From Sipunculus nudus (taxonomy: Eukaryota; Annelida; Sipuncula; Golfingiida; Sipunculidae), in assembly GCA_026874595.1 (NCBI GenBank), contig CM049309.1, positions 94,510,723-94,574,722 of the forward strand: DNA of 64,000 nucleotides, written 5' to 3'. Made by a program: the position numbers and the translations under genes. How positions within the stretch are numbered: the first letter of the stretch is position 1; each line of letters opens with the position of its first letter. This document shows positions 876-61,922 of this stretch, one piece after another. Below the pieces are notes generated by a model. That model did no database searches. It was not told where the DNA came from and worked only from the letters and a program-made list of their open reading frames with translations.

Positions 876-2387
876 ACAAGGCCTTCAGGCTTAATGCGAA
901 CCTGTGCAATGAGATTACACTCTTGACTCAAGAGTGGCTGGAGAGAGCCAAGGTCTGACATGGTCTCATAAAAACATTAATAAAAGCTACATTTTTTGGC
1001 CAATTTCTTTCAGCTTTCTAAACTAAAAAGCTGAAATCCTTATGTGTGCATGATATGAAAATTATATAAACATAGCTCACATGAAACAAAAGTGAAATGG
1101 TCAAAGTTGGGCAAAATTTAAGGTACTTATTTTATATTTATACTAATAACTAATAAAATTTTAAAAAAAATCAGAACTAATTTTGGGTATTCAATTGAAT
1201 CTTGATTAAATAATGTTACATCCCTGACAAAAAATCTCTAGCTTCAGCAAGCCCTTTGTTAAGGGAGTAAATATATTTCTTGAATTTTTACAAAGTGCAT
1301 TATGTTTGGGCCCATAACTTAAAACAATTATGCAATACTGACATCATTTGGCATGTGCACAGAGAATGTATAGAAAAACATGTATATTATATATGATTAA
1401 AGTCAGATCAGTGGTTTTGATTTTAGGCAGTATTGAAGTGTAACAATGGGTTTTTAATTGAAAAATGAAGTTTTTCATTGATATCTCAAAGGTATTAAGT
1501 CCTAGTGACCAAATTCTTGGCATGGTAGGGAATTTTGGAGACATCTAATTGTATGCCAAATTTTAGGAACTGAGAGCTGAAGCTGGGGAGCTGAGCTCTT
1601 GCAAACTGCATAACACTAGCCTGATGTAAACAATATGTTACATGGTGCTTGAAAACTACAGTTTTTGATCAACTGGTTTCAAATTTTTGGTGTTAACAGA
1701 TAAATTGCTAACAAAAACATGCTGAGAAAATTAAATCCACAGTACTTACAGGAAAAAAACGTGCCATGGTCAAAGTTAGGCAAAATTTAAGGTACCAATT
1801 TTTTATTTTTGTTAATATTTTAAAAAATTTAAAAGATTTTGATCTAATTTTGGGTATACAATTTAATTTTGATTGATTAAAGTTATATTACTTGAAAAAA
1901 AGTCCATAGCTTTAACAAGTTTTGTGTTAAGTGATCAAATATCTTTCCTGATTTTTTACAAAATGCATTATGTTCTGGCCCATAATTTTCTTAAATTACA
2001 TAATACAGACATAATTTCAGGCATGTACTTAGGAACTATATAGAGGAATATTTATGGTAAATATGAGGAAAAACAGATGAGTGGTTTTGATATTAGGCAG
2101 CCCTGAAGTGTGAAAATAGTTTTTTAATAAAAAATTGAGGTTTTTCCTTAATTTCTCAAAGGAACAAAGTCGCAAAGACCCAGTTTTTGGCTTGGTAGGA
2201 GATCTTGGGGACATCTAACACTATGCCGAATTTTGGATTCCTAGGTCTTACGGTTTCAAAACGTGCAACATTTACGTACAGACTGATGGACAGACGGACG
2301 GACAGATGGACGGACGGACAGACAGATGGACGACGGACAATGGACCACAACTATAGCTCAGATGACTTTAAGTCAGCTGAGCTAAAA
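876..2387 (+). mobile_element. Chimeric tandem-module element (family-4 left end, two family-1 modules, 3' palindrome)
   Basis: It starts ACAAG (876-880), with GCGAACCTGTG at 896-906. Two diverged ~500-bp modules follow (about 1040-1555 and 1735-2220). Each holds GGTCAAAGTTNGGCAAAATT, a GGCCCATAA block and GTGGTTTTGAT..TTAGGCAG. The 3' part is an ACGG-rich tract (2290-2340) and an imperfect palindrome (2355-2383; AGCTCAGaTGACTT with AAGTCAgCTGAGCT) followed by AAAAA. The left subterminal motif matches the right end of the element at 15098-17857 and not its own right end, so this copy looks mosaic. No transposase frame is present. Confidence 0.6.
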
Positions 2388-2511
2388 ATGGGTCAAGGTA
2401 ATCCATCTTCAAACTTGACTGAGATTTTATCGATATACATCTTCACTGATGAAATAAAATTCCAACGGTGAATCCTTTGAGAGATATCCTGCTCACAAGT
2501 TAAAAGTTAAC

Positions 2512-4800
2512 AGACGCGGGACGGACGGTCGCCTATGAGCTGAGGAGGGCTAAAAATGGCTGTACATGTACATTTGTCATGAAATTTATATTTTTCATGA
2601 AATTTTCTATGTTTAGGAGTCGTAAAACAATCAAAAGTAGGTCAACAAGGAGGAAACGCGAACTCGATCTGTAACTGGTCATTATCTGCACACATACCAA
2701 AAATCAGGCCAATGTCTGCAGGCATTGCGAAAAAAAGTCCGTACATGTGTATTTGTCATGAAAATTTATATTTTTCATGAAATTTTCTATGTTCAGGAGC
2801 CATAAAACTGTCAAAATAGGTCATCTGGGATGAAATGCGAACTCCATCTGTAACTGGTCAATAACAACCCACACACCAAAAATCAGGCCAATATCTGCAG
2901 GCATTGCATAAAAAAGTCCTTACATGTGTATTTGTCATATAAATTTCTATTTTTCATGAAATTTTCTATGTCAAGGAGCCGTAAAACGCCAAAAGTAGGT
3001 CAACTGAGACGAAACATGAACTCGATCGGTAACTGGTCAATATCTGCCCACACACCAAAAATCAGGCCAATATCTGCAGGCATTGCATAAAAAAGTCCTT
3101 ACATGTGTATTTGTCATGAAAATTTCTATTTTTCATGAAATTTTCTACATTCAGGAGCCGTAAAACGCCAAAAGTAGGTCAACTGAGACGAAACACAAAC
3201 TAGATCTGTAACTGGTCAATATCTGCCCACACACCAAAAATCAGCCCAATATTTGCAGGCATTGCATAAAAAGTCCTTGCATGTGTATTTGTCATGAAAA
3301 TTTATATTTTTCATGAAATTTTCTATGTTCAGGAGCCATAAAACGGTCAAAATAGGTCATCTGGGACGAAATGCGATCTCCATCTGTAACTGGTCAATAA
3401 CTACCCACACACCAAAAATCAGGCCAATATCTGCAGGCACTGCGAAAAAAAGTCTGTACATGTGTATTTGTCATGAAAATTTCTATTTTTCATGAAATTT
3501 TCTAGGTTAAGGAGCCGTAAAACGGTCAAAAGTAGGTCAATCGGGACGAAATGCAAACTCGATCTGTAACTGGTCATTATCTGCCCACACACCAAAAATC
3601 AGGCCATTATCTGCAGGCATTGCAAAAAAAGTCCGTACATATGCATTTGTCATTAAAATTTCTATTTTTCATGAAATTTTCTATGTTTAGGAGCCGTAAA
3701 ACAATCAAAAGTAGGTCAACAAGGAGGAAACGTGAACTCCATCTGTAACTGGTCATTATCTGCACACATACCAAAAATCAGGCCAATGTCTGCAGGCATT
3801 GCGAAAAAAAGTCCGAACATGTGTATTTGTCATGAATGTTTATTTTTTCATGAAATTTTCTATGTTCAGGAGCCATAAAACTGTCAAAATAGGTCATCTT
3901 GGATGAAATGCGAACTCCATCTGTAACTGGTCAATAACAACCCACACACCAAAAATCAGGCCAATATCTGCAGGCATTGCATAAAAAAGTCCTTACATGT
4001 GTATTTGTCATGAAAATTTCTATTTTTCATGAAATTTTCTATGTTCAGGAGCTGTAAAACGCCAAAAGTAGGTCAACTGAGACGAAACACGAACTCCATC
4101 TGTAACTGGTCAATATCTGCCCACACACCAAAAATCAGGCCAATATTTGCAGGCATTGCATAAAAAAGTCCTTGCATGTGTATTTGTCATGAAAATTTAT
4201 ATTTTTCATGAAATTTTCTATGTTCAGGAGCCATAAAACGGTAAAAATAGGTCATCTGGGATGAAATGCGATCTCCATCTGTAACTGGTCAATAACTACC
4301 CACACACCAAAAATCAGGCCAATATCTGCAGGCACTGCGAAAAAAAGTCTGTACATGTGTATTTGTCATGAAAATTTCTATTTTTCATGAAATTTTCTAG
4401 GTTAAGGAGCCGTAAAACGGTCAAAAGTAGGTCAATCGGGACGAAATGCAAACTCGATCTGTAACTGGTCATTATCTGCCCACACACCAAAAATCAGGCC
4501 ATTATCTGCAGGCATTGCAAAAAAAGTCTGTACATACGCATTTGTCATTAAAATTTCTATTTTTCATGAAATTTTCTAAGTTTAGGAGCCGTAAAACAGT
4601 TAAAAATAGGTCAACCGGGACGAAACATGAACTCGATCTGTAACTAGTCATTATTTGGCCACACACCAAAAATCAGGCCAATATCTGCAGGCATTGCGAA
4701 AAAAAAGTCTGTACAACTGTTTGATTTCGGAATGATGGAAGGACGGAATGACGGACATGGGTAAAACTATATGCCCCGGCCACTTTGTGGCGGGGTCATA
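2512..4800 (+). repeat. Array of twelve ~179-bp units with ACGG and hairpin end
   Basis: Twelve copies of a ~179-bp unit containing ATTTGTCATGAAAATT, AGGAGCCGTAAAAC, TAACTGGTCA, ACACACCAAAAATCAGGCCA and ATCTGCAGGCATTGC. The ATTTGTCAT landmarks fall at about 2571, 2751, 2930, 3109, 3288, 3467, 3644, 3826, 4003, 4182, 4361 and 4537. A GGACGGACGG stretch precedes the array (2518-2530). After it come GGAAGGACGGAATGACGGAC and a hairpin (GCCCCGGCCAC-TTT-GTGGCGGGG, 4773-4797), then TCATAAAA. Short open frames in it repeat with the unit and are not genes. Confidence 0.85.
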
Positions 4801-4819
4801 AAATTATTGTTTAGTGTAA

Positions 4820-6655
4820 TGTTTTTTGGCCAAAACAAATACTAAAGGAGGGGGGTTGGACAGTTAGATCCAGCTGAAGCCACCCATGAGCTGGCTGGCT
4901 GCAGAGTGCCTCACTTCAAGCATGCATTATTGGCCTGAAAGGTCAATGTGAGGACATGTAGAGGGGCTTCAGTACAGCCTAAGTGTGACATAGTCTCATA
5001 AAAACTTCAATAAAAGCTTCAGTTTTTTATCAATTCCTTTCAAATTTCAGAATTAAACCATGGCCAAAGTTGGGCAGAATTTTAGGTGCTGATTTTATAT
5101 TTATGTAAATAACATATAACATTTGAAAAATACAGATCTAATTTTTGGTTATATCCATGAAATAAAGTCTTTAGCTTCAGCAATTCTTATGTTAAGTGAG
5201 TAAATATATTGCCTGAATTTTTATAAGGTGCATTATGTTCGGTCCCATAACTTCAACATATAACGCAATACTGACCTTAAATTAAGATAATGCTGGTGCC
5301 ACCACCATTCATGCCCTGTAGCTAAGGTTCATCAACCCCCATAAGCACATCAAATTTGATGACAATCCATGAAGCTGTTCTTGAGGGAGCTGGCATTTAG
5401 TGTGTATTTTTCAGTTATTCGGGGGGGGGGGGGGGGGGGGTTAAACTGGTTCCACAACTAAAAGAATATAGGTCACAGTGACCATATTTCAGGTTTCTGA
5501 GGAGAACTTCAGAGGAGCTCTCAGGATACAGAGGTTAATGATTCTAGGCTTTACAGTTAAGAAGGGTGATCTCTAATGCTCAGATGACTGTCTACTTACT
5601 CAAAAAATGTGTTAAAATTCAAATAAATACAGGTGGCACCACCAGTCTGCAGGAACTGATGAAGCACACCATGATCAATATGCATGCTAAGAATCACTGC
5701 CATCAATGCATTAGCTGTTCAGATACTGGAGCTTTTGTATCAAATTTTCAATTTTCCTTGGGGAAACCCCAGAGCTTACAGAATATGGGTAACAGAGACC
5801 TAATTTAAGGATTCCAAAAAAAATTTTCAGGGACCTCACTAGATGTCAAGTAAGAAGATTTGAGGTCCAAAGATTATGATTTGTGCTCTGTTAACAAGTG
5901 ACCGCATCTTTAGGGTTCTCAAAATTAGCAACAAAATTTGAAAAAAATAAAGGTTGTGCCACCAGTCTGCAGGAACTGATGAAACTCTCCATGATCAATA
6001 TCCATGCAAATAATCATGGCTATCAATGCATTAGTTATTCAGGTACTGGAGCTTTTGTGTCAAATTTTAAATTTTTTTTTTTTTTGGGGGGGGGGGGGGA
6101 GTGTACTTATGAGTCCAATAGCTTAGAACAAATGGGAAACAGAGACCAAATTTCAGGATTCCAAGGGGATTTTTCAAAGACCTCCCATGATGTCAAGTTA
6201 GAAGATTCTAGGTCCAATAGTTAAGATTTGTTCCCTGTTAACGGATGACCTCTTCATTTGGAGGTCTCAAAAATGGAGAAAATATTCGGAAAAAATCCAG
6301 GAGGCCACACCAGTCTGCAGGAACTGATGAAACATTCCATGATCAATATAAGGGCAAAGAATCATGGTGATCAATGCATCAGTTGTTAAGATACTGGAGC
6401 TTTTGTATCAAATTTTTTATTATTCTGGGGGGTACTTCTGGTCCCAATAGCTCGGAGGATATAGGTAACAGAGACCTAATTTCAGTAAAATTTTCATGGA
6501 TCTCCCTGAATGTCAATTGAGAAGATTCTAGATCCAGTGGTTAAAATTTCTGCCCTCCTAACTGACAGAGGGATAGACAGACACACTGACGATGGACAAA
6601 GAGTGACTGCTACAGATCAGATGACTTTAAGTCTTACTGAGGGAAAGATGAAGGT
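4820..6655 (+). mobile_element. Mosaic tandem-module element: family-1 5' part joined to family-3 modules
   Basis: 4970-5285 matches the first half of the ~500-bp modules at 1040 and 19680 (GGCCAAAGTTGGGCAGAATT; CATTATGTTCGGTCCCATAA). From about 5286 it switches to the module type seen at 27230-29400 and 55430-57200 (TTCATCAACCCCCATAAGCA; AGTCTGCAGGAACTGATGAA at 5645, 5964 and 6311). It ends with a degenerate palindrome near 6617-6650. G-runs at 5421-5440 and 6086-6099 sit at the same place in successive modules. No coding capacity. Confidence 0.6.
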
Positions 6656-6841: not shown

Positions 6842-9800
6842 CTGTAAGTATTATAACTAACACATCATTAACCTGTATACCTGACACCCAGGATTCAGTA
6901 AGCAGGCACCTTCTAGGGGGACTTGAGTTTGATGACTTGTCCACACTGCAGTAGCGCTGACAGGCTGCTAGTGAATGCTGACAGAACAGAAGAATCAGAT
7001 CCAGACACAGTCTTGTGTAAGAAACCTAATCTGCTGATTTAAAATCAGATATATGGCTTGTCATATAAAACATGTGCTCATAATAAGATTATACATCTGT
7101 CGTCAATAGGTTTCATATTGCCACATGTGTAGAGCAACAAAGCACCTCACTCACTAACAGAATAGTCTATATCCTAAAAGCATCCCAGTGTCTGATCAAA
7201 CCAAAACTTTTAAACTTCTGCCACTGAATTTTTTTTATGTAAGTCATGAGAAAACCTAATATCTCATCAAGTAAACTCAATGTCTTGTTTCCTAAATTGA
7301 TACTAATATTAACAGAATCTTTTCTTAACGATTTACAACTGAGTTATAAAATGGTCCCAACTTGAGACCAAGGAATCTTGGAAAAAAAGGTTACTTTCAT
7401 CAGTTACGCTGGTAGAATTAATAAATGTGAAAATATAGGATATTTTTAGTATAAGCATAAAAGGTAACCTTTGCCAAAAAAAATATGCAAAAATTAATTT
7501 TGCTAAGGCAGGGTTGAGCAATTGCAGGGTCACAAAGTTCTTTCTTTGCCCTTATCAGTTATGCATGAATTCCTGGACAAGGGGTGTTTATCACCATCAC
7601 CAATAAAATACCAGGTCCTGGACAGGGGTGACACCTGGAGGTGGGGTAAGAAGTGAGGGAAAGAAGCTAGAGGTCATCCTGATTAGGGTAAGGTATATAA
7701 ATAGTGGTCCTGCCTTAAAACCAGGACCCCAAGCATAGTTAACACGCAATTTGTCCTCTAAATATTGGATTATCCTTTTTAAAAACAATTGTAAATTCAA
7801 GCAGGTTTGGCAGACCCTTTCTGGTATATGGAGAGCATACTGTAAAATAAATAAATGGCATTATATTGCAACTCACCTAACCTCTTAGTAAGAGCTTTTA
7901 GTCCTGTTATTTCAATTTATTTAGTGTATGTAGAAATCAGAAGAATGTTAAGTTCAGTAGATATTCTTCTTCACTATGTCCACTTAAACAGCTCAGTTTT
8001 ATTTAAAAGCTTCACATGCTGAATAAATCTGCTGTATGAGAACTTGCAAGGACTTTCAATCTAAGAGGAAAGCCCATCAAATTGTAAAGTTTTAGTTTTA
8101 TCATTATAACAAAAACATATAAATTCAGGTTCCAAGGCCTTGATTTACACCTCAGGATAGGTACTGAAATCATTCAAATGGATACAAGGTATGGATCTAG
8201 TGACTTAATGAAATAAAAGAGGTCACTCTCTATCAGGAGTAAAGTCTAATCTCTGCATTATCCTCTCAAAACACACATCCTGGGCACCACAACTGTGCAC
8301 ACAATAACTTGGACATGCAGAATGCAATATTTAACCAATCTAGTTAAATCATAAGTGAAATATGCAGCAAAACTTGAAACCACCAAACACTATCTGAGCA
8401 TCAACAAGAAATCATACACATAAAATATGTCAAACCACTTTGTGCGCTAATGCTCAATGTGTGACTGAGAGAACTAATGCTCGTTAAAAGAAATGTGTCC
8501 TACACATACTGCATACACAAGGTAGGGCTCGACTATATGTACAAGTGGATGTATAAAAACGGCAGCAGTGCAAGCAGCAGAGCCTGATTGCTGGTGGAAA
8601 CATTACAATAGAAAATTAAAGCAAATTATAGTTAATGAGCTAATATATCTCAAGAACAACAATTGTCTAAATACAATGACACACCACTGGTACAGAGGTA
8701 TTCATAAAGAGTATCAGGTAACAAATGACAGTCAAAGAGCTACATGCAGGACTTATTTACAGGTGTAGATTTCCCAGTGCAAGTACTGTTCATTTTCCTT
8801 GAATTATTGTTGCTGCAGTTGTCTTTTTGTTGCACCACATAAGCACATAACTTATCAAAATGATAAATAATATACTGAACATCCAAGATGTAAATGGATG
8901 ACGTTTACATGGTGCCCTCTGTGCCAGCAATGAGCCACTAAAATCAGTCTATGTAAATCGTCTATGAATCAAAAGGATAAGGAAGAAAGCACACAGCAAA
9001 CCACACTAACATGGCCTTTGCTTGCCTTTTGGGTGTCCATCCGTCTTCCACTGTAGTTAAAATTTTGAGGGGTTTCCACTGTAACCTCCTGCAAAACAAA
9101 CCAAACATGTTAAAGTTTTTAACAAATCAATGAAAATCAGCACTATTTCTCTGGGCTTAACAGACAGTAGTTTTCAAACATCCAGCTTTCACTTGAACAA
9201 CAAATTTCAATAGTATCATCCAACACAGAGCATGTTCCACATGACTGTTAACAGTAAAATGTGTTTAAATGTCTGTTTTTTCTTTAGTATCTGATATGCA
9301 ATATACTCCTAATTTAAGATAAACAAGTATTACCATTCTTATTTAATTTTTTTAAGAGAGAAAATCTTCAGAAATGGCTTACTAAAAGTAAAGGGTAATG
9401 TCCAGACTGGCAAGTAGTAGGGGATGTTTGTTCCTTTTGTTCCCTTTGCTTACATGATGTTAACTGTTGTTGTCTCGCCCTGCTGTCATACATGAGTCAC
9501 TGCCATTATCTAGTCCACTGTCATACATACATGATGTTAACTGTTGTTGTCTAGTCCTGCTGTCATACATGAGTCACTGCCATTATCTAGTCCACTGTCA
9601 TACATACATGATGTTAACTGTTGTTGTCTAGTCCTGCTGTCATACATGAGTCACTGCCATTATCTAGTCCACTGTCATACATACATGATGTTAACTGTTG
9701 TTGTCTAGTCCTGCTGTCATACATGAGTCACTGCCATTATCTAGTCCACTGTCATACATACATGATGTTAACTGTTGTTGTCTCGCCCTGCTGTCATACA

Positions 9801-12800
9801 TGAGTCACTGCCATTATCTAGTCCACTGTCATACATACATGATGTTAACTGTTGTTGTCTAGTCCTGCTGTCATACATGAGTCACTGCCATTATCTAGTC
9901 CACTGTCATACATACATGATGTTAACTGTTGTTGTCTCGCCCTGCTGTCATACATGAGTCACTGCCATTATCTAGTCCACTGTCATACATACATGATGTT
10001 AACTGTTGTTGTCTAGTCCTGCTGTCATACATGAGTCACTGCCATTATCTAGTCCACTGTCATACATACATGATGTTAACTGTTGTTGTCTAGTCCTGCT
10101 GTCATACATGAGTCACTGCCATTATCTAGTCCACTGTCATACATACATGATGTTAACTGTTGTTGTCTAGTCCTGCTGTCATACATGAGTCACTGCCATT
10201 ATCTAGTCCACTGTCATACATACATGATGTTAACTGTCGTTGTCTCGCCCTGCTGTCATACATGAGTCACTGCCATTATCTAGTCCACTGTCATACATAC
10301 ATGATGTTAACTGTTGTTGTCTAGTCCTGCTGTCATACATGAGTCACTGCCATTATCTAGTCCACTGTCATACATACATGATGTTAACTGTTGTTGTCTC
10401 GCTCTGCTGTCATACATGAGTCACTGCCATTATCTAGTCCACTGTCATACATACAAGATGTTAACTGTTGTTGTCTCGCTCTGCTGTCATACATGAGTCA
10501 CTGCCATTATCTAGTCCACTGTCATACATACAAGATGTTAACTGTTGTTGTCTAGTCCTGCTGTCATACATGAGTCACTGCCATTATCTAGTCCACTGTC
10601 ATACATACATGATGTTAACTGTTGTTGTCTCGCTCTGCTGTCATACATGAGTCACTGCCATTATCTAGTCCACTGTCATACATACATGATGTTAACTGTT
10701 GTTGTCTAGTCCTGCTGTCATACATGAGTCACTGCCATTATCTAGTCCACTGTCATACATACATGATGTTAACTGTTGTTGTCTAGTCCTGCTGTCATAC
10801 ATGAGTCACTGCCATTATCTAGTCCACTGTCATACATACATGATGTTAACTGTTGTTGTCTAGTCCTGCTGTCATACATGAGTCACTGCCATTATCTAGT
10901 CCACTGTCATACATACATGATGTTAACTGTCGTTGTCTAGTCCTGCTGTCATACATGAGTCACTGTCATTATCTAGTCTTCTGTCATACATACATTATGT
11001 AACTGTCGTTGTCTAGTCCTACTGTCATACATGAGTCACTGTCACTAAATAGTCCTGCTGTCACACATGATGTTAACTGTCATTGTCTAGTCCTGCTGTC
11101 ATACATGATTCACTGTCATTATCTAGTCCTGCTGTCATACATGATGTTAACTGTCATTGTCTAGTCCTGCTGTCATACATGATTCACTGTCATTATCTAG
11201 TCCTGCTGTCTTACATGATGTTAACAGTCATTGTCTAGTCCACTGTCATACATGATGTTAACTGTCATTGTCTAGTCCTGCTGTCATACATGAGTCACTG
11301 TCATTATCTAGTCCTGCTGTCATACATGACTGTTGTTGTCTAGTCCTGCTGTCACACATGATTTCCACTGTCATTATAAAGTCCTGCTGTCATACATGAT
11401 GTTAACTGTCATTGTCTAGTCCTGCTGTCATACATGATTCACTGTCATTATCTAGTCCTGCTGTCATACATGATGTTAACTGTCATTGTCTAGTCCTGTT
11501 GTCATACATGATGTTAACTGTCATTGTCTAGTCCTGCTGTCATACATGATTCACTGTCATTATCTAGTCCTGCTGTCATATATGATGTAAACTGTTGTTG
11601 TCTAGTCCTGCTGTCATAGATGATGTCCTGCTGTAATACATGATGTTAACTGTCATTGTCTAGTCCTGCTGTCATACATGATGTTAACTGTCATTGTCCA
11701 GTCCTTCTTTCCAACATGATGTTCACTGTCTTTGTCTATTCCTGCTGTCATACATGATGTTAACTGTCATTTTGAAGAGAGAAAATCTTCGGAAATGGCT
11801 AACAAAAAGTAAAGTGATGAGTCGCTGTCATTATCTAGTCCTGCTGTCATACATGATGTTAACTGTCATTGTCCAGTCCTGCTTTCCAACATGACGTTCA
11901 CTGTCTTTGTCTAATCCAGCTGTCATACATGATGTTAACTGTCATTGTCTAGTCCTGCTGTCATACATGTCCACTGTCACTGTCTAGTCCTGCTGTCATA
12001 CATGACTTTCACTGTCCCTGTCTGGTCCTTCTGTCATACATGACATCCACTGTTGTTGTCTAGTCCTGCTGTCGTACATGATGTTCAATGTCATTGTCTA
12101 GTCCTGCTGTCATACATGTCCACTGTCACTGTCTGTTCCTGCTGTCATACATGACTTTCACTGTCCCTGTCTGGTCCTTCTGTCATACATGACATCCACT
12201 GTTGTTGTCTAGTCCTGCTGTCGTACATGATGTTCAATGTCATTGTCTAGTCCTGCTGTCATACATGTCCACTGTCACTGTCTAGTCCTGCTGTCATACA
12301 TGACTTTTACTGTCCCTGTCTGGTCCTTCTGTCATACATGATATCCACTGTTGTTGTCTAGTCCTGCTGTCGTACATGATGTTCAATGTCATTGTCTAGT
12401 CCTGCTGTCATACATGTCCACTGTCACTGTCTGTTCCTGCTGTCATACATGACGTTCACTGTCACTGTCTGGTCATTCTGTCATACATGACATCCACTGT
12501 TGTTGTCTAGTCCTGCTGTCATACATGATGTTCAATGTCATTGTCTCGTCCTGCTGTCATACATGTCCACTGTCACTTTCTAGTCCTGCTGTCATACATG
12601 ACTTTCACTGTCCCTGTCTGGTCCTTCTGTCATACTTGACATTCACTGTTGTTGTCTAGTCCTGCTGTCGTACATGATGTTCAATGTCATTGTCTAGTCC
12701 TGCTGTCATACATGTCCACTGTCACTGTCTGTTCTTGCTGTCATACATTACCTTCACTGTCACTGTCTGGTCCTTCTGTCATACTTGACATTCACTGTTG

Positions 12801-15800
12801 TTGTCTAGTCCTGCTGTCGTACATGATGTTCAATGTTATTGTCTAGTCCTGCCGTCATACATGTCCACTGTCACTGTCTGTTCCTGCTGTCATACATGAC
12901 GTTCACTGTCACTGTCTGGTCCTTCTGTCATACATGACATCCACTGTTGTTGTCTAGTCCTGCTGTCGTACATGATGTTCAATGTCATTGTCTAGTCCTG
13001 CTGTCATACATGTCCACTGTCACTGTCTGTTCCTGCTGTCATACATGACTTTCACTGTCACTGTCTGGTCATTCTGTCATACATGACATCCACTGTTGTT
13101 GTCTAGTCCTGCTGTCATACATGATGTTCAATGTCATTGTCTCGTCCTGCTGTCATACATGTCCACTGTCACTTTCTAGTCCTGCTGTCATACATGACTT
13201 TCACTGTCCCTGTCTGGTCCTTCTGTCATACTTGACATTCACTGTTGTTGTCTAGTCCTGCTGTCGTACATGATGTTCAATGTCATTGTCTAGTCCTGCT
13301 GTCATACATGTCCACTGTCACTGTCTGTTCTTGCTGTCATACATTACCTTCACTGTCACGTCCTTCTGTCATACTTGACATTCACTGTTGTTGTCTAGTC
13401 CTGCTGTCGTACATGATGTTCAATGTTATTGTCTAGTCCTGCCGTCATACATGTCCACTGTCACTGTCTGTTCCTGCTGTCATACATGACGTTCACTGTC
13501 ACTGTCTGGTCCTTCTGTCATACATGACATCCACTGTTGTTGTCTAGTCCTGCTGTCGTACATGATGTTCAATGTCATTGTCTAGTCCTGCTGTCATACA
13601 TGTCCACTGTCACTGTCTGTTCCTGCTGTCATACATGACGTTCACTGTCACTGTCTGGTCCTTCTGTCATACATGACATCCACTGTTGTTGTCTAGTCCT
13701 GCTGTCGTACATGATGTTCAATGTCATTTTCTAGTCCTGCTGTCATACATGTCCACTGTCACTTTCTAGTCCTGCTGTCATACATGACTTTCACTGTCCC
13801 TGTCTGGTCCTTCTGTCATACATGACATCCACTGTTGTTGTCTAGTCCTGCTGTCTTACATGATGTTCAACGTCATTGTCTAGTCCTGCTGTCATACATG
13901 TCCACTGTCACTGTCTGTTCCTGCTGTCATACATGACATTCACTGTCACTGTCTGGTCCTTCTGTCATACATGACATCCACTGTTGTTGTCTAGTCCTGC
14001 TGTCGTACATGATGTTCAATGTCATTGTCTAGTCCTGCTGTCATACATGTCCACTGTCACTTTCTAGTCCTGCTGTCATACATGACTTTAACTTTCCCTG
14101 TCTGGTTCTTCTGTCATACATGACATCCTCTGTTGTTGTCTAGTCCTGCTGTCGAACATGATGTTCAACGTCATTGTCTAGTCCTGCTGTCATACATGTC
14201 TACTGTCACTGTCTGTTCCTGCTGTCATACATGACGTTCACTATCACTGTCTGGTCCTTCTGTCATACATGACATCCACTGTTGTTGTCTAGTCCTGCTG
14301 TCGTACATGATGTTCAATGTCATTGTCTAGTCCTGCTGTCATACATGTCCACTGTCACTTTCTAGTCCTGCTGTCATACATGACTTTCACTGTCCCTGTC
14401 TGGTCCTTCTGTCATACATGACATCCACTGTTGTTGTCTAGTCCTGCTGTCGTACATGATGTTCAATGTCACTGTCTTGTCCTGCTGTCATACATGTCCA
14501 CTGTCACTGTCTGTTCCTGCTGTCATACATGACGTTCACTGTCACTGTCTGGTCCTTCTGTCATACATGACATCCATTGTTGTTGTCCAGTCCTGCTGTC
14601 GTACATAGTGTCCACTGTCATTGTCTTGTCCTGCTGTCATACATGATGTTCAATGTCATTGTCTAGTCCTGCTGTCATACATGTCCACTGTCACTGTCTA
14701 TTCCTGCTGTCATACATGACGTTCACTGTCACTGTCTGGTCCTTCTGTCATACATGACAGCCACTGTTGTTGTCTAGTCCTTCTGTCATACATGATGTTC
14801 ACTTTCACTGTCTAGTCCTGCTGTCACACATGACGTTAACTGTCACTGTCTAGTCCTCCTGTCATTGTCTAGTCCTGCTGCCATACATGCATTCTATATT
14901 CAATATCATACAGTTTCACATCTTTTATGTTTTGATTAATACTTAGTTTTATTAGTTTATTAACTGGTATCATAATGAAAAGAAATCTGTTAAATTATGC
15001 ATATTAAAAGATGGCTCTGGATTTCTTTGACAACAGATATAATTTCATTTTATTTACTAAGTGACTTCAGATACTTAACTTTAGCTTACATTAAAAAACA
15101 AGACTTACAGGCCTAATGCGAAACTGTGCATATGGATATACACCAGGTATAACGTTTCAATGCTGAACCACTACTTTTCATATATATGAATATACTAAAC
15201 ATTTTGAACAAGAAACAATACACAACATCACTGCTGAAATTCTAGCATGGGTGCACACAACACAAAAATTATTGTAGGTGGCACCACCAGTCTTGTATAC
15301 GACAAAGCTATTTGACATGTATAATAATTTCAGGCTGATATATCAAATTCCTCCGTAGAATTAAGCAGGCACATACACTTTGCAAAAGTCATTGTAGATG
15401 GTGACACCTGTCTTGTGAACGAGAAAGCCATTAAAGACACATAGACAGGTCAGAATATCAGGCCAATACATCAAACTTACCTTGAGTCTGATGCACGGGG
15501 CTGACCAGGCTTAGGTGAGAAAGGCTGTTGCCCCGAGTGTACTGTGACCAATTACTGGCTCAGGCTACTGCACTGAGTGAACTCTTGACCTGCACCTGGC
15601 TAGACTGAGAGAACTTTTGACCTGTACCTGGCTGCACTGAGTGAACTCTTGACCTGTTGCATAATCTGACACAGTTGGCAGTCTGCCAAAGCTATAAATA
15701 AATCCAGGCTGACCTTTTGCCTATTGCCAAATCTAAAATAGTAGCCACACAATTGCACAAGCTCACAGATTGGCTCCATATGCAGCCCTGAGGGGCATGA

Positions 15801-18800
15801 CACCCATGAGGTGATCACATGATACTCATGAGGTGATCACATGCTACCCATGAGGTGATCACATGCTACCCATGAGATGATCACATGCTGCCCATGAGGT
15901 GATCACATGCCTTATGCTTGGCTGCACTGATTGAACTGTTGACCTATATTTGGCTGCACTGAATGAACTCTTAATCTGTTGCCAAATCTGAAACAGTTGG
16001 CAGTTTCTCAACCTATTCAAGAAACAAACACAATCTTGGCCTGTTATGTAACTCTGCTAACATTTTTCCAACACAAACCATTTGAACAAACTTGAGAAGG
16101 CTCGCCTCCAGGATCATTTCTGTAAAATGTTGAACAATTTGGCTGGACTGTTTACAAGAAGAAGACTTTTAATGTTTTTTTTCAGCTTTTTCCCTGTAAA
16201 ATCTAAGTAAATGCAGATAGCAAAAATAAGCTGAATCCATCAACATTTGATATGTGACTGATAATTGCATAAAATTAGGGGATGGTAGCTCCTGCTATTC
16301 CTGAGAAATTATGAGTTAGTGTACAGATGATATGTAATATCATAAATCTACATTTTTTAAAAGCTTTTAAAAAACATTCTTGTCAATATTTTCCATAGAT
16401 ATTCTGAAATCTAAATGTCTAGAGGCATGATGTAATGGATGCTGATAAACTGGTGCTAGGCTAGATGTATCTGCTTAACACAGCTAACATTTATGGTAAA
16501 ATGACTCAATTCAATCTTTATAATTCAGCCAAAATTCATTTTTTGGGACAATTATCATTAGAATGATTCAGGGAATTATTCTTGCAAAATATTAAACAAA
16601 CTGGCCTCAGTATCATCAGTTGAAAAACGTTTTGTAGGTTTATAACTCATATGGGAAAATACAGCAAAATGGCAAAGTTCAGCTTCCCATAACTCAGCAA
16701 AAAATCATTTAACCAAAACCATTTGAACAAACTTGAATTATCAACTTCTAAGGATAATTAATGTGTGAGATTTAAGAATTTGGCCCAGTGGTTTTTGAGA
16801 AGAAGATTTTTGTAGCCACTTAGCTAACATGGGCTGTTATGGCATATGACAAAATTCAGCTTCCTATAACTCAGCCAAAAGTCCCTGAACTGAGACCATT
16901 TGAACAAACTTGAATTATCAACATCTAAGGATAATTAATGTGTGGGATTTAAGAATTTGGCCCAGTGGTTTTAGAGAAGAAGATTTTGTAGCCACTTAGC
17001 TTACTTGGGCTGTTATGGCATATGACTAAATTCAGCTTCCCATAACTCAGCCAAAAGTCACTGAACTGAGACCATTTGAACAAACTTGAATTATCAACAT
17101 CTAAGGATAATTAATGTGTGAGATTTAAGAATTTGGCCCAGTGGTTTTTGTTGAGAAGATTTTTGTAGCCATTTAGCTAAAATGGGCTGTTATGGCATCT
17201 GACTAAATTCAGCTTCCCATAACCAGTCAAAAGTCACTGAAATGAGACCATTTGAACAAACTTCAGAAAGCACTACCCTAGGATCATTTCTGTTCAATAT
17301 TTAACAATTTGGCCATTTTGTTTCAGAGAAGAAGTTATTTGTAGCTGTCAGTATGATATGGGCACTGATGACCCCCGTACAAAAAAGGGCCGATGCAGGT
17401 GGCGCCACCAATACCTCAATTTTAGATATGACTCATGTGACCAACATTGGCATAAAATTTTGTGATGATAGCTCAAGCCATTTCTGAGATTGTAATTTTA
17501 GTATGCTTTTTTGGACAGATGACTAAGTTCAACTTCCTGTAACTCGGCCAAAAATCACCGAACTTAAACCATTCGAACAAACTTGAGAGAGATTGTTCCA
17601 GGAATCATTTCTGTAAAATATTGGACAATTTGGCTGAACAGATTCAGAGAAGAAGATTTTTTAAGCTTTTTTAGCTTTTTCCCTATAAAATCTAAGAAAA
17701 TGCAGTGAGCCAAAAAATAAGCAAAATCCGATAGAGTTTTTTAGATGACTAATTTTATGCATAAAATTTTGTGATGCTAATTCTTGCCGTTTTCAAGATA
17801 GTATGGGTTAACGTACAGACGCCGGACGCCGCGATGGTGCTCACAGGTTCGCTAAAAAGTCAAACCATTTAATGAACTTGTTACACTGTACATACAGTAT
17901 GGGGAGAATAGGCAATGTGAAATATTATACAGAACAGATAAATACTTAGCCATACTTTCAGTTACTGGAGTGTGGTAGTGTAATGGCAAAGGTGCTGGAC
18001 TTGTGATCATGCGATCAAGGGTTTGAATCCTATAGCATCTCACTTCTTCACTAAGATCCTTAAGCAAGGTCTCAGCCACAAGTGTGCTTATGTCTGCCCA
18101 GCATTACAAATGAGTACTAGATAAAGTGCTATCTGCGTATGGCGGGCCCCAGCAACTTAAAACTGTGTGTGAGCTTTGAAGTGTCCCCCTAAATAGAAAA
18201 TAGTAAAGTGTTCTGAGCCATTATTGGGAAGTGGACTAAAACCTGCTATTTTTTACTTTACTTTATATGTACAATATGTTCAAAACTATATATTAAGTTA
18301 AAAATAGGACTGTAACCACACTATGTTAAAGGGGCCCATTCACCTATAAAGCATGTTGAGATAACACGAAAAACAGCTTCTTCCCTTTAAAATAAATCTA
18401 TACCTGCCAAAATATTGCCTTGAAACCGTTTGCTTACTCCTGTAAACGAGTGTTAAAAACAGTGAACCGGGCGCGATCGCAGGTGTAAACATAAACACAG
18501 TGCGTCGGGCCGTGTGCTTTGCGGAGCCACAACACGTGCCAATCAGGAGATGCCCTGACTGACTTGGCTAAAATAATGTAATACATGTTCCCGCTAGCTG
18601 AAACTCCTCTTAATTGGACCTCCGGTCACGCGGCCTTGTTGTGGTAAACAGACTGTGTTTACCAACACGGAGGGCTATAACAAGGTGTTAAACAGTCGTA
18701 TGCGAGGAAATGAGACTGTGCTAGAATGATTTTGCTGGGATAATTTTGTATAAAGCAAAACTGAACTAGTAGTATGAAATAATAGGCATTATATTGCTCC

Positions 18801-49355: not shown

Positions 49356-50796
49356 TTGTGGAACAGTACCACTAAAAACTCCGACGTGCTTAACAACCTG
49401 GATGCCAAACTGTCACACCTTACCGCACAACAACAACAAGACCTCATGAACCTGCTGCAGAATTATGAACATTTGTTTAGTGACATTCCAACGCCAACTA
49501 ACATATTGTGCCATGCCGTCGATGTTGGCGAGGCAAGCACAGTCAAGCAGCATCCTTAAATACTAAATCCAGAAAAGCAAAAGTATCTACAAGATGAGGT
49601 TCAATATTTTCTGGAAAATGATTTTATTTAAACTAGTAACACTAACTGGAGTTCACCTTGTATTCTTGTGCCAAAACCTGATGGAATTTACCGTATGTGC
49701 ACAGATTATCCAAAAATGAACTCTTGTCACCAAGACTGACACGTTCCCGATTCCGAGGATCAATAATTGTATCGATAGAGTCGGTAGCTCCAGATATGTC
49801 TACAAGTTTGACTTGCTAAAAGGATTCTGGCAAGTTCCGCTGACAGAACGAGCGAAACAAGTGTCCCCATTTGTGACGCCACAAGGACTGTACAAGTATA
49901 AAGTTATGCCGTTTGGCATGAAGAACTCGCCAGCCACGTTCCAGCGCCTCATCCATATCGTTGTCAAGGACATTTAGGGCTGCGACGCATATATTGATGA
50001 CCTTATCGTGTACAGTGACACCTGGGAGAAACATCTGCAAATTCTTCGCGACCTCTTCGAAAGACTCAGTGAAGCACGTCTGACCTTCAATTTAGTTAAA
50101 TCTGAGTTTTGTCATGCATATGTAACATTTTTGGGTCATACTGTAGGGCAGGGTCAAGTAAAACCTGTTGATGCTTTAATAATTGCTATTTCTGCATTTC
50201 AAAAATAAGAAAAAAAAAACAAATAATGCGTTTTCTTGGTATGGTTGGATACTACAAGAAGTTTTGTCCATATTTTTCTGCTGTATCTGAACCTTAGACT
50301 AATTTGTTAAAGAGGAAACAAAAATTTGTATGGAATGTTCATTGTGAAAATGCATTTCAGAATTTGAAAGCAATTCTGCAAAGTTCACCAGTTTTGGTAG
50401 CTCCAGACTTTTCTTTACCTTTTAAGTTAGCTGTAGGTGCTAGTGATACTGCTGCTGGTGCTGTGTTGTTTCAAAAAGGCAGTGATGGCACAGATCATCC
50501 ATTTTTTTTATTTTTCAAGAAAGTTAAATGCACACCAGAAAAACTACTCCACTATTGAAAAGCAATGTTTGGCTTTGATTTTGGCATTGCATTCTTTTGA
50601 AGTTTATGTTACTTCATCAGTCAAGCCTATCATTGTCTTCAGTGATCACAATCCCCTCACGCTCATGAACAAGTTGAAGTGTAAAATTCAAAGATTGTTG
50701 AGACAGAGTTTGTTTTTACAGGATTTAAGTCTCGAAATCAGACACATTCAAAGGAAAGACAATGTACTTGCTGATTGCTTATCGAGATGCTTATGA
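49356..50796 (+). pseudogene. Ty3/Gypsy polymerase remnant (reverse transcriptase and RNase H), inactivated
   Basis: Fragments in more than one frame match Gypsy-type pol. A pre-RT segment (LLQNYEHLFSDIP, 49356-49559) comes first, then WSSPCILVPKPDG, FDLLKGFWQVPL, MPFGMKNSPATFQ, the catalytic YIDD at 49990-50001, FLGHTVG and RFLGMVGYYKKF. RNase H follows with DFSLPFKLAVGASD, CTPEKLLHYSTIE-like and DHNPLTLMNKL, ending NVLADCLSRCL and a stop at 50796. Several in-frame stops (for example near 49557, 49628 and 49976) and frame changes make it non-functional. No gag, no integrase and no 5' LTR were found. It lies 22 kb or more upstream of UCKL1 exon 2. Confidence 0.9.
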
Positions 50797-55321: not shown

Positions 55322-57326
55322 ACATGTGACCCATGGGTAATGACGCTCAGCCGACTGACATGTTGACAATATGTCCTTGCACAGGAAACTAATTAAGATA
55401 ATATTCATTCATGCATTCAATATAAATTCATGCATTTTAGCTTAAGTTCATCAAGACTCATTAGCACATCAAATTTGATGACAATCCAACCAGCCTTTCC
55501 TGAGGAACCTGGCAAATTTGTGTGTATTTTTCATTACTTCTGGGATGCGCAAACATACCCGAAAACTCTGAGAATATAGGTCTCTGTGACCCAATTTCAG
55601 GTTTTGAGGGGAGAACTTTTGAGGAACTCTCAGGATGCCAAGTGAGAAGATTCTGGGTCCAACGATTATGATTTGTGCCCTACTTTGGTATCAAATTTTC
55701 AAATATTCTGGGGTGTTCATAGAATATGGGTAACAGAGACCTAATTTCATGTTTCAAAGGGGACTTTTCATGGACCTCCCTGGAATTAGAGTTAGAATAT
55801 TCTGGGTCCAGTGGTTATAATTTGTGCCCTGCTTTGGTATCAAATTTTCAGTTATGCTAAGGGTGCTTATAAGCCCCATAAATCAGAGAATATGGGTGAC
55901 AGAGACCTAATTTAAGGATTCCAAGGATATTTTTATTGACCTTCCTGCCCTGTTAACAAACGACCGCATCTTTGAAGGTCTCGAAAATAGAGAGAAAATG
56001 CATAAATTGGAAAAAAAATCAAGGTGGCGCTACCAGTCTGCAAGAACTGATGAAACACTCCATGATGAATATGCATGCAAAGAATCATGGCAATCATTGC
56101 ACAATTTGTTGAGATACTAGAGCTTTTGTATCAAATTTTAAGTTATTCTTGGGGGTCTACTGAGCCCCATAACTCAGAGCATATTGGTAACAGAGACCCA
56201 ATTTCAGGTTTCCAAGGAGATAATTTTATTGACCTCCCAGCATGTCAAGAAAGAAGAGTCTAGGTCCAATGGTTATTTTTTGTGCCCTCTTAACAGATGA
56301 CTGCATCTTTTAAAGTTTCAAAAATAGAAAAAAATCATTAAAAAAATACAGATGGCGCCACCAGTCAGCAGGGATTGATGAAACACTCCATGATGAATAT
56401 GCATGCAGAGAATCAGGGCAATCAATGAACCATTTGTTGAGATGCTAGAGCTTTTGTATCAACTTTTTAGTTGTTCTTGGGGGTACTTCAAAGCACTATA
56501 GCTCAAAGAATATGGGTAACAGAGACCTAATTCCAGGTTTCCAAGGAGACTTTTAATGGACCTCCCTGCTTGTCATGACAGAAGATTCTTGGTCCAGTGG
56601 TTACATTATGTGCCTTGTTAACATATGACCTCATCTATTAAGGTATCAAAAATAGAGAAAATTTTTCCACAGAGACTTTTCATGGGCCTCCCTGCATGTC
56701 ATGAGAGAAGATTCTAGGTCCAGTCCTTAGGATTTGTGCCCTGGGGGGTGCTTCAATGCCCCATAGCTCGAAGAATATGGGTTACAGACACCTTATTCCA
56801 GGTTTCCACAGAGACTTTCCATGGGCCTCCCTGCATGTAAAGAGAGAAGATTCTAGGTCCAGTCCTTAGGATTTGTGCCCTGTTAACAGATGACCGCATC
56901 TTTTTAGGTATAAAAAAATAGAGAAAAAAATTCGTTAAAAATTTTTTTTTAAATACAGGTAGCGCCACCAGTCTGCAGAAACTGATGAAACACTCCATGA
57001 TCAATATCTATGCAAAGAATCATGGTGATCAATGCATAAGTTATTCAGATACTTGAGCTTTTGTATCAAATTTTCCATTATTCTGGGGGGTACTTCTGGG
57101 CCCCATAGCTCGAAGAATATGGGTAACAAGGAGATATGGGTTTTCAAGGAGAATTTTCATGGACCTCCCTGGATGTCAAGTAAGAAGATTCCAGGTCCAG
57201 CGGTTACGATTTGTGCCCTGTTAACGGACAGATGGCCGGATGGCCGGAGGGCCGGATGGCGGGACGGACGACGGACAAAGGGTGATCGCTATAGCTCAGG
57301 TGACTTACAGTCAGCTGAGCTAAAAA
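55322..57326 (+). mobile_element. Family-3 tandem-module element, copy B, nested insertion
   Basis: Left end ACATGTGACCC with GCTCAGCCGACTGACATGTT 22 bp in, nearly identical to copy A at 27143. Modules with GGTGGCGCTACC / GATGGCGCCACC cores follow, then a GGCCGGAGGGCCGGATGGCG tract and the palindrome at 57293-57321, then AAAAA. It interrupts the CAGCGCCCCCT repeat. No coding capacity. Confidence 0.8.
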
Positions 57327-58640
57327 TTCAATTTTCCATCATCTCTGTAAGTTAAAAGATGATTGTTGCAAAACTGTGGCCAGGAGAGTGCAGACACACA
57401 AACCAACAAGCTAGACGACCATAGGTCACGCGCTTGCCGGAAGTTAAAAGAGAAAGAAAGACGGATAGATAGGAAACAATATTATAACACTAACTTAACT
57501 CTACGTGATGCAAAAACCTACACCTCTCTAGCCATATAAATGACAAAGTTATAAAAGCTAACGTAAATGCGCGGAAATTTTCTCTAAAATAGGTCAGCAT
57601 GGTGCAGGCAGAATGAGGTTAAGTGTCCGCAGGAATAAGCCCATTGACCGTAGTGTCAGTAATAAAAAATTGTGACATTGTTTATAGTTTTGAATCTATG
57701 AGACAAAAATCATATGTTGAAGTGTTTGCACTGCAGCGCCCCCTGCTGTATATTTTCCAAAAATGAAAAATAAAATGCAAGATACTCTATTTAACATATA
57801 ATGAATGAGTTTTGAAGAGATTAATTGAAAACTGCTGCCTCCATTACTAATCTCGCAATAATATCTTACAGCGCCCCCTGGTAGCTATTTTCGGAAACCT
57901 GACATAATTGTGCAATCCTAATTAAACCCTACATCATGCCTAAATCTTGACCTTCTCAGCCTTAAAAATAAAAAAGTTACAAAAGCTTAGGGAAATGCCA
58001 AGAAGTTACTTTAAAAAGGTCACCATAGTAACCGAAGATTGAGGTCAAGTGTACCCTGGAAGAAGCCCATTGATTGAAGTTTCAGATTCTGTTATTAAAG
58101 TTGTAACATTGTTTATACTTTTGAAGCTGTTAAACAAAAATCATATGTTGACGTGTTTGGATTGCAGTGCTCCTGGTGGCTATATTCAAAAATAAAAAAA
58201 AATTGTTTGTAGATATTTCTATCTAACATATAACGCTTCAGTTTTGAAGTGATTACTTTAAAAGTGGGGCCTCTGGGACATTATTAATGAAATCGTGCAA
58301 AATTGTTGTACAGCGCCCCCTGGTTGAAAGATCCGGAAAGTTGAAATATAATCTCGTTTTACTTATCAAAATCTACAAGATTCAACAAAAATTGACTTCT
58401 CTAGTCTTAAAAATGACAAAGTTACAAAAATCATTTTTCAAACTTTGAAATTTCATTATTTTTCTTAAAAATTACGTAACCAAGGCAACATCAAATTGAG
58501 GCGATTGTGCATTAAGGTAAAAGGTCATGTATAAAATGAGCTATTGTTTGTGGGGCTACGAGCATTCTTGACAAAGTTGTATAGAAAAAAAAGCCATTTT
58601 TAGGGGTCTTGAAGGTTAACCTTTGAACAAAAACAATAGG
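57327..58640 (+). repeat. CAGCGCCCCCT-module repeat, right part (about three modules)
   Basis: CAGCGCCCCCT at 57733, 57871 and 58312, with a variant near 58166. Each module also carries AAATGACAAAGTTA(t/c)AAAA, AATAAGCCCATTGA and ACAAAAATCATATGTTGA. It is the continuation of 54770-55321. Confidence 0.7.
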
Positions 58641-58960: not shown

Positions 58961-61394
58961 AGGTGTACTGCTTTGATGTCTACATTAAACAATGTTGCCA
59001 AAGGCACAGTCTAGCCATGAATTGGTTCCAATGGAATTAAACTGTACTGAAATTAACATCAAATGAAGCACCTATTTTCTCTAACCTAAGTTCTCATGTT
59101 GACATCCAAACCTGATACTCCATATTAATGTACAATAAATTATAAAAAAATCATCTTGTTATACTCCATACTTAAATATGCAATTAAATAACTAAGTCAC
59201 AATCCTATGGGGACACTAATCTAAACTTAAATTGGTTTCGTAACCGTTTTCGCTGATCTAGCCTTACTGCCGAAAGCTTGGAAATGTCTTAAGTTTTATA
59301 CAGCATCTAGTATGGGGTTTAACCCAAAGTCGAAACCAGAGGAATCTCTTTAACGGCTTGAACTTTCTTAACTGTTTTGACCAGACTTAAGGTTATCCTG
59401 ACAACAGACAGTTGGCGTGACTTGCCCTGTTATGACCTTTATATTGAATAATAACAATGATAATGCATTCACAAATGATAACAAAAGCATGATATTAGTT
59501 ACTGTTTTTTTATTAAGCACGGTTATTTACAAAATACTAACACGCACATGTATCTGTATGTATGGAATAATTCTAATTACCTTTTCTACTGAGCCTGTTC
59601 ACCCTTAAATAATTCCATGAAAATATTATAGAAAAACATTGATGTAATAAAAAGAAATTGTACCATTCAACCACAAGCAAATGTCTATATACAGTATGTA
59701 TGAAAGAATTATAGCATGAAATATCTATGAGCAATATGTCTGAGCAAATTATAGCACAATATGGTAAATGCAACGAAAGGTAATTGTACAACAGCTGGGA
59801 TATACCAAATACAGACACTTCTTACGTGCACTATTTACATATTAAATGTTGGATGTTAGGCTTGGTAAAAAAGCTGTATGGATAAAATTGACAAAATCAT
59901 GTGATAAGCTCATGTGATAATTAATTCTCGTTTCTTATTATTTCCATATAATGAGCGCTAAAATCTTCTATTCTCAAATTGGATCACTATGAGTAAAAAC
60001 TATCAGTATTTTAAGTTAGTTCTTTATAGTTCCTTCGATACGTTATAATGTATTAATTTAGCCACCGAATTGCTTGCACGGACGCTGAAGCACACGAACA
60101 TACAAGCATATTATACTTGGACATACGGTACATATGTCATGTCAGATTTGACGTTTATGCAGTCAGTTTCTTTGTGTAACCCGTGATGTCATGCAGTCAG
60201 TTTCTTGGTGTAACCCGTGATGTCATGCAGTCAGTTTCTTGGTGTAACCCGTGATGTCATGGCACTTCTTGAGCATGCTATTCTTCTGCTGCCCCTCGTA
60301 TCTATGTCATGAAGGAGGGAAAACAAATAAAATAAAGTTGATATAGTCATATGATAATAATATAATACATAAGACTTAGTCAGCTGACCTATAAACTGTC
60401 ATCATGAGATGAAGGACATGAAAGTCATGATAAAAAAACCCGAAAGAAACGTTACATAGGAGAACTAAAATACATCCGATCTAATTCCAACTTATGTTTT
60501 TAACCATGTGATATCTAATGTACCTGATAGTGCACATACATTAAGCGGACATCTCTTCTGTTTGAAGTGTTTTTGTTCCCCCACTCAGTACCAGGGGTCT
60601 CTGAGGATATTTTTGCTATGATATTTTGTTTGTTCACTTTTCCTTTTTCCTGTGCCAGTTGCTGTCGTTACTCGTCCCCGAGTATCAAAATCGTTGTAAA
60701 GACCTACTCAACGATTAGAGAGTCCAACTGCAGACCGATTGGGAAACGAATCAAAGATATAAACGCTAAATTGTAACACGAGTTGAAGAAATATACTCAT
60801 TGTGGAAATTTAGAAAATGCAAGCCAAATGGAAAAGTCGACTTAAGATGTGTAGGCTTAGAAAGGATTAGAAAGATCAAATGAAAACATGTAAGCACGAT
60901 GACGAAGGCTAAATGAAACATGCATATATGCAAAGAAAATTCAATTCAGCACGATACGGAAAAGGCCAATTACAAAATATGTTAGCACGATTTACGAGAC
61001 TAATGATGATATGTAAGTAAAATAAGACTAACTGGTATAAATGTTAGTCAAATGGGAATCCTTAGTGGACATCATGTGCAGAAAGCAATTTTCAGCATGC
61101 ATGCACGAGTATCTTCAAGAGCATGGCAAGTTTAATTACTGAACATACACTAGAGAGTTATTTAAAATTGTTTGTCCTTGCACAGTCTCAGCATACCCCA
61201 CACCCCTCTGGAGGCGTATGGGTAGATACAAACACCTACGGCGAAGCTCAAGTATAACATATGGTCCATTCTTTACCGTGCTGTCTTCACATAAAATCAA
61301 TTATTTTACTTTATGGCTATGTGCTTTTAGTCCAAGATAGCTCCTGTCAGCCCCTGGAGTCCAATGTTATGCATTTAGGTAACATTATGTAAAA
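58961..61394. other. AT-rich interval, no gene supported
   Basis: No coding signal beyond short frames (59417-59608, 59573-59818, 60567-60776), none with a recognised family. The only clear structure is the 34-bp triplication listed separately. Confidence 0.4.
60157..60258 (+). repeat. 34-bp unit, three copies
   Basis: ATGCAGTCAGTTTCTTGGTG plus TAACCCGTGATGTC, starting at 60157, 60191 and 60225. Only one base differs, in the first copy, so the expansion is recent. Confidence 0.95.
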
Positions 61395-61922
61395 ACAAGA
61401 GGACCGCAAACTGGCAAAATACGCCCGTTGCATATTTTGTGACCTCTGACCTCATTTAGTATTCGTAAATTTTGCTGATAATGTAATTCATGTAAGAAAC
61501 TATATTGGTTAATAATTATGATGAGTTTCATGAAAATCCATTGGAATTTCGGTTAGTCATCTCGGCGCGACCAAAGTCTGGAGACCTCTGACCTCATTAA
61601 ATATGCATAGATTGTGCTGGAAATCGAACTAACGTGAGATATAATATTGATTAATATTTCTGTTGAATTTATCAAATTTCATCATATTCCTGGTAAGTTA
61701 TCGCGGCGACACAACAAAAAAGCCTGGTGACCTCTGACCTTATTAAATATGTGTGGATTTTGCAATAATCGAGCTCGGGTGAGATAATTTATTGATAAGT
61801 AGGGGGGTTTCGTTTCGTGAAAATCAATCAAAGTCATCAAACTGATATCACGGCGACACTAAATTTAACGGACGGACGGGCTGTGGGTATACCATAATAC
61901 GTCACAGACGAGCGTATTAAAA
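61395..61922 (+). mobile_element. Family-5 small tandem-module element (Helentron/HINE-like)
   Basis: Left end ACAAG (61395) with AATACGCCCGT at 61418-61428. Three ~150-bp modules follow with GTGACCTCTGACCTCATT, then TAACGGACGGACGGG. The right end is ACGAGCGTATT (61908-61918), the inverted partner with one mismatch, then AAAA. The right part also forms a small hairpin (AATACGTC .. GACGAGCGTATT). Confidence 0.7.

Follow-up and report, generated by a model that had tools for sequence, protein, structure and literature searches.

Several repeat families in a 64-kb stretch of the Sipunculus nudus genome are most likely non-autonomous Helentron-type elements read on the minus strand

A 64,000-nucleotide stretch of the Sipunculus nudus genome (GenBank assembly GCA_026874595.1, contig CM049309.1, positions 94,510,723 to 94,574,722 of the forward strand; here the window, with positions counted from its first base) contains several repeat families that share one architecture at their ends, which raises the question of what kind of element they are, in which direction they should be read and how far their two ends have to match. 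According to the original prediction, three of them (families 3, 4 and 5) run from ACAAG through about 20–23 bp, an 11–12 bp motif, tandem modules, an ACGG-rich tract and the inverted motif to (T)AAAA; the motif was said to differ among families and to match from left to right, as an inverted pair read by one transposition machinery. On the basis of current results, these elements are very likely (probability of roughly 0.9) non-autonomous Helentron-type rolling-circle elements (HINEs), running 5' to 3' on the minus strand, and with equal confidence we place them in the group that holds the bivalve pearl/CvA and Cg_HINE elements.

All three motif pairs were located where they had been predicted: GCTCAGCCGACT at 27166 and AGTCAGCTGAGC at 29402 in family 3, GCGAAACTGTG at 15118 and CACAGGTTCGC at 17842 in family 4, and AATACGCCCGT at 61418 and ACGAGCGTATT at 61908 in family 5. 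On the plus strand, ACAAG begins at 27143, 15098 and 61395, respectively, the left motif starts 20–23 bases from its first base, an ACGG-type tract lies upstream of every right motif, and the right motif ends at most one base from an A-rich end. The predicted termini hold for families 4 and 5, whereas those of family 3 are variant: copy 1 ends in CTAATAAT instead of (T)AAAA, and copy 2 (55322–57326, minus strand) starts with ACATG instead of ACAAG and ends in CTAAAAAT. The left motif of copy 2 is that of copy 1 at 12 of 12 positions. When the two family 3 copies were aligned, similarity stopped sharply beyond a left ACA[A/T]G and a right CTAA[A/T]AAT, and these boundaries are therefore well supported. 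The left motif lies inside a run of 46 bases identical in both copies (252 of 298 bases are identical over the full left alignment). A-runs on the plus strand, that is, T-runs on the minus strand, border most outer edges of the elements, the exceptions being the left edge of copy 2 and an AATAAT at the right of copy 1.

The direction of reading follows from the order of the parts. On the minus strand, the 5' part of family 3 copy 1 (27143–29419, with both ends and about 5.5 tandem units of about 335 bp) consists of AGCTCAGCTGACT, which is the 5' subterminal inverted repeat (subTIR), gta, the inverted repeat (IR) AGTCATCTGAGCT, a GTCC-type tract and the tandem units, and its 3' part of the 3' subTIR AGTCGGCTGAGC, gtcat, the palindrome GACCCACGGGTC, ACTTG and a T-run. 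The general order on this strand is T-run, 5' subTIR, IR, GTCC-type microsatellite, tandem repeats, 3' subTIR, palindrome, CTTG and T-run. Published HINEs, which are compared here through excerpts of the cited papers, have a 5' subTIR, a complementary IR, a GTCC/GTCY/GTCK microsatellite, tandem repeats, a 3' subTIR and a palindrome, in that order (PMC7492417; PMC4067079). Because the two orders agree on the minus strand, the end originally called right is most plausibly the 5' end, and the left-to-right orientation given to these families has to be reversed. The corrected orientation determines at which end transposition begins and at which it terminates. As for the anatomy of the ends, the motifs had been correctly recognized, but the IR and the 3' palindrome had been missed: the right motif of family 3 is one arm of a hairpin, and the palindrome sits between ACAAG and the left motif.

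A subTIR/IR stem of 13 pairs with one mismatch was found at five ends of the family 3 type, which also occurs in a further family, A (hairpins starting at 2355, 20335, 29386, 34362 and 57293). These five 5' hairpins fold at −17.5 kcal/mol and that of another end, at 4800, at −18.5 kcal/mol (RNA parameters). Complementarity of the IR to the 5' subTIR is strong at these six ends and short in family 5, where AATACGTC lies by the 5' subTIR. In family 3 copy 1 the 5' hairpin occupies 29386–29414 and the 3' end 27143–27177, the latter with the subTIR GCTCAGCCGACT (on the plus strand), the palindrome GACCCGTGGGTC and, on the minus strand, a terminal CTTGT. This copy has a clear 3' palindrome; another is visible by eye at the end at 876 (GCCTTCAGGC), and those of family 3 copy 2 and family 4 are decayed. 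Microsatellites and central tandem repeats are present as ACGG-type tracts and tandem arrays (in family 5 the repeat, visible by eye only, has diverged too far for Tandem Repeats Finder), and inverted subTIRs of about 11–15 bp near both ends were found in four of the five complete elements (10/11 matches). HINEs are expected to insert in T-rich sequence, at a TT target and with no target-site duplication; T-runs stand here at most edges. The features of canonical Helitrons (5'-TC, CTRR-3' and no terminal inverted repeats) are absent, the ends being T-run/subTIR and CTTG, with subTIRs present.

The closest likeness is to the 11 Cg_HINE elements described from Crassostrea gigas, in which subTIRs are normally 11–12 bp long and element-specific and a single mismatch between the two ends prevails in every element except two (PMC7492417). 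Shared features are 11–12 bp subTIRs, an IR by the 5' subTIR, tandem repeats, unrelated modules in one layout and, in several, a GTCC-like microsatellite on the 5' side; a 3' palindrome and insertion into T-rich sequence may be shared as well. In contrast, Cg_HINE units are mostly 140–180 bp long, compared with about 335 bp in family 3, and a candidate element of the window combines two end types; the comparison is one of layout, not of sequence identity (PMC7492417). The DINE-1/HINE elements of Drosophila and a mite share subTIRs, an IR by the 5' subTIR (DINE-1), a microsatellite, central repeats, T-run flanks and possibly a 3' stem-loop, whereas the subTIR of mite HINEs lies 2–4 nt from the 5' end and 38–60 bp from the 3' end, the latter distance being about 20–23 bp here (PMC4067079). 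The bivalve pearl/CvA elements (Gaffney et al., 2003), as later papers describe them, likewise have subterminal inverted repeats, a tandem core and a tetranucleotide microsatellite (PMC5874043; PMC11136912; PMC7492417), and the start of a scallop CvA primer resembles, by eye, the left end of family 5 (AGAGG(G/A)CC) (PMC5874043); they differ in the orientation and the class, similar to miniature inverted-repeat transposable elements (MITEs), that they were originally given. It should be noted that not all subTIR elements appear to share the full layout, since an oyster survey, in the part cited here, reports subTIRs in 257 of 751 intact Helitrons and a microsatellite in one of those examined (PMC7992393). 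Our data add several apparent HINE families to an architecture published for oysters.

The match between left and right motifs, the original basis for grouping these families, was then compared with chance. With the ends given and the left 30 bases shuffled 2000 times, the observed 10/11 was reached in 8 trials for family 3, 3 for family 4 and 9 for family 5. On the other hand, an unrestricted scan for ACAAG, an 11-mer, the inverted 11-mer and AAAA gave four matches on the plus strand and six on the minus strand, compared with 0–5 on each strand of 25 order-2 Markov sequences, about 1.8 on average; as controls in the real sequence, direct, reversed and complement pairings numbered 1, 0 and 9 on the plus strand and 13, 1 and 2 on the minus strand. 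The bare pattern was therefore discarded as evidence by itself, and support rests on the given ends, the second copies and the anatomy. When the scan was restricted to right ends near an ACGG-type tract, a criterion picked after the elements had been seen, two inverted matches remained on the plus strand (families 4 and 5), and two or more such matches occurred in 7 of 1000 permutations; the minus strand gave none, and its direct-repeat control gave four, all of one 11-mer and apparently from a tandem array. Family 3 is missing from both scans because copy 1 ends in CTAATAAT and copy 2 begins with ACATG. A scan for a hairpin before AAAA returned seven rows on the plus strand, five of them HINE-like, and two on the minus strand, neither of them HINE-like (0–3 per strand in 10 Markov controls).

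These results bear on two other explanations of the locus. The pairs might be short inverted 11-mers picked by eye between the common words ACAAG and AAAA, a suspicion fed by the chance-level result of the unrestricted scan and by the fact that the original prediction chose the ends. We regard this as extremely improbable given the shuffles with fixed ends, the tract-restricted permutations, the conservation of the ends from one copy of family 3 to the other, and the independent agreement of the end at 876 with the 5' motif of family 4 at 11/11 positions, which no shuffle reached (0/2000). The elements might instead be MITE-like, moved by cut and paste with a DDE transposase binding both inverted motifs as internal terminal repeats. 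This was the first published reading of pearl/CvA, CvA having initially been classed as MITE-like (PMC5874043), and it would account for inverted motifs at both ends and for the lack of coding capacity; yet the motifs are subterminal rather than terminal, the two ends are unlike (in family 3, hairpin plus microsatellite versus palindrome), most edges are T-runs, and pearl was later re-categorized as a non-autonomous Helentron (PMC7492417), all of which make it a very unlikely account.

The Helentron assignment and the filing with pearl elements agree with most of the structural features that could be tested, but several findings weigh against them. The IR of the family 4 5' end folds weakly, and that at the decayed ends at 2552 and about 6640 is weak as well; family 5 shows no evident 3' palindrome; families 4 and 5 are each present as a single copy; and a coding Helentron (Rep/helicase/endonuclease) was not found within the 64-kb window. 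The longest closed stop-to-stop frame is 173 aa (frames running off the window ends left out), and among the 10 of 17 frames of at least 110 aa that were scanned, none matched a Rep or helicase family in Pfam, the only matches above the cut-off being reverse-transcriptase RNase H and uridine kinase. Oyster HINEs, according to the excerpted account, could likewise not be linked by its authors to any autonomous element (PMC7492417). Outside the window, the family 3 hairpin had no match in viral_contigs or in genome_contigs, two mollusc-type end patterns had none in viral_contigs, and a blastn search of family 3 against phages returned no match. A loose hairpin pattern hit 15 stretches, which were judged unrelated as none had a microsatellite tract (they were viewed with 60 bases before and 12 after the match, and had at most three tract words within 90 bases upstream).

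For non-autonomous Helentron-type elements of this layout, we infer an enzyme, a replication mechanism and an origin of mixed ends as follows. A Helentron Rep/helicase/endonuclease encoded elsewhere would recognize the subTIR/IR hairpin at the TAAAA (5') end, nick the T-run and peel off one strand through the microsatellite and tandem repeats. Peeling would halt at CTTG|T, close to the 3' subTIR and palindrome, after which the strand would enter a T-rich site. Each family would carry its own subTIR at both ends, and passing a weak 3' end, or recombination, could attach the 3' end of another family. Helraiser, the bat Helitron, offers the model for such a mechanism, with an essential 5' end, a 3' hairpin terminator and read-through capture; in the experiments cited, its 5' terminus was essential and its 3' terminus dispensable, and bypass of the latter captured downstream DNA. 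It differs in having canonical 5'-TC/CTAG-3' ends, an AT target and termini without inverted repeats (PMC4778049).

How strictly must the ends match? Matched pairs were found in four of five complete elements (family 3 twice, family 4 and family 5) and in three of four families. The predicted left/right covariation is thus real in most cases, but it introduces no new rule: it is the known subTIR, since element- or family-specific subTIRs are described in the cited parts of PMC7492417 and PMC4067079, the latter proposing at least 11 bp of identical subTIR as the definition of a Helentron family. An apparent exception is the family A element at 876–2388 (minus strand), which lies within the interval of the original prediction though outside its three families. 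The 3' end of this element (motif GCGAACCTGTG at 896–906) is of the family 4 type, its sequence ACAAGGCCTTCAGGCTTAATGCGAACCTGTGCA being homologous to the family 4 left end over about 33 bases; the 11/11 match noted above is that of this motif to the right motif of family 4. Its 5' end (hairpin at 2355–2383) is of the family 3 type and shares 76% identity with the end at 57226–57327 over 102 bases. Between its own two ends, the best match is 7/11, which 1589 of 2000 shuffles reached. Hence the proposal of one machinery reading a family-specific inverted pair holds as far as subTIR pairs in three of four families are concerned, and appears to fail at a candidate element that mixes two end types; a machinery common to all families may be supposed from the shared layout only.

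There are three possible readings: matching ends may not be a strict requirement, end capture may have removed the match in 876–2388, or 876–2388 is not one element. In the last case, an old family-4-type 3' end stub would adjoin a 3'-truncated family A copy, a reading that we consider quite possible, if somewhat short of probable. The homology to family 4 is confined to about 33 bp at the left end, and the other family A copies have no recognizable 3' end; against this, 876–2388 has ACAAG, palindrome, subTIR, body, microsatellite, hairpin and AAAA in full order, and A-runs on the plus strand border both of its outer edges. A second chimeric case, a mosaic at 4960–6640 (minus strand), joins family A (4960–5283) to a family 3 body (5280–6633) with a decayed family-3-type 5' end; its 3' end was not recognized. 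In both chimeras (n = 2) a 5' end is retained and the part that differs lies toward the 3' end, as would be expected if the 5' end leads, as in the Helraiser experiments, and by this analogy read-through with capture of downstream DNA may be the simplest account of them. The mosaic also contains a second end-like stub near 5575–5606.

The elements of the window also point in one direction. All ten recognized 5' ends (2384, 2552, 4800, about 6640, 17854, 20364, 29415, 34391, 57322 and 61919) have the same orientation, as do the five recognized 3' ends (876, 15098, 27143, 55322 and 61395), although the families involved are unlike one another. ACGGACGG-type (ACGG)n octamers occurred 30 times on the plus strand and never on the minus strand; a looser set of 7-mers gave 67 and 10, so weaker tract words are present on the other strand. 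A scan for tract plus hairpin returned nine rows on the plus strand (two probably spurious, the others representing six distinct HINE ends, of which one appeared twice) and none on the minus strand. If the ten ends were independent, the two-sided chance of such an arrangement would be 2 x (1/2)^10, about 0.002, for a pattern that was noticed post hoc and that includes two decayed ends, the one at 2552 having been judged by eye. Should one-way blocks prove to be genome-wide, they might reflect strand-asymmetric Helentron insertion, for example of single-strand copies into one template strand at replication forks, and together with the mixed-end element they might mean that all families depend on a single enzyme, which would recognize each end on its own and not as part of a matched pair; we hold this as a speculative and rather unlikely extension. 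No report of HINEs with two end types or one-way orientation was found in a literature search, seen in excerpts, in which few queries were aimed at these points. The mixed-end element and the direction common to all ends provide small, testable hints as to whether the ends have to match and whether one strand is preferred for insertion.

The remaining elements, all on the minus strand, complete the catalogue. The family 4 element spans 15098–17858 (motifs at 15118–15128 and 17842–17852, 10/11), and only its left end has a relative in the window, at 876; the family 5 element spans 61395–61922 (motifs at 61418–61428 and 61908–61918, 10/11). Two further family A copies have a 5' end only: 19628–20368 (hairpin at 20335–20363), whose 3' end was not recognized, and 34051–34395 (hairpin at 34362–34390), whose left part is cut off. 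At 2562–4803, a 179-bp tandem array is followed by a 5'-end hairpin formed on the minus strand by the subTIR GACCCCGCCAC and its IR; within the window, GACCCCGCCAC has no second copy at up to one mismatch. At 2500–2556, where an ACGG tract precedes GAGGAGGGCTAAAAAT (weak fold, −5.2), the decayed 5' end of yet another family may be present, as judged by eye.

A palindrome like GGTGGCGCCACC, often within AGGTGGCGCCACCAGTCTG, was found at 5631, 15276, 17397, 20745, 27727, 28397, 28730, 56350 and 56957 in a search that allowed up to five mismatches in 19 and was run with no chance control. It is common to the otherwise unlike families 3 and 4, its copy at 20745 lies outside any defined element, and it may be a join point of repeat modules. 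A literature search with GGTGGCGCCACC had a bacterial endochitinase paper as its sole match. Among the other features of the window, the frame at 25981–26349 (minus strand) has a match to PF00485, the family of uridine kinases (E = 2.7e-25), and, judging from this match, seems to be part of a host gene lying among the repeats. The frame at 50437–50793 (plus strand) is a reverse-transcriptase RNase H fragment (PF17917, E = 1.4e-17), probably a retroelement remnant; all other matches of the scanned frames were below the cut-off. Finally, long tandem arrays of short units were observed at 9451–14865 (38/149 bp), 40381–41645 (26 bp) and 62493–64000 (27 bp).

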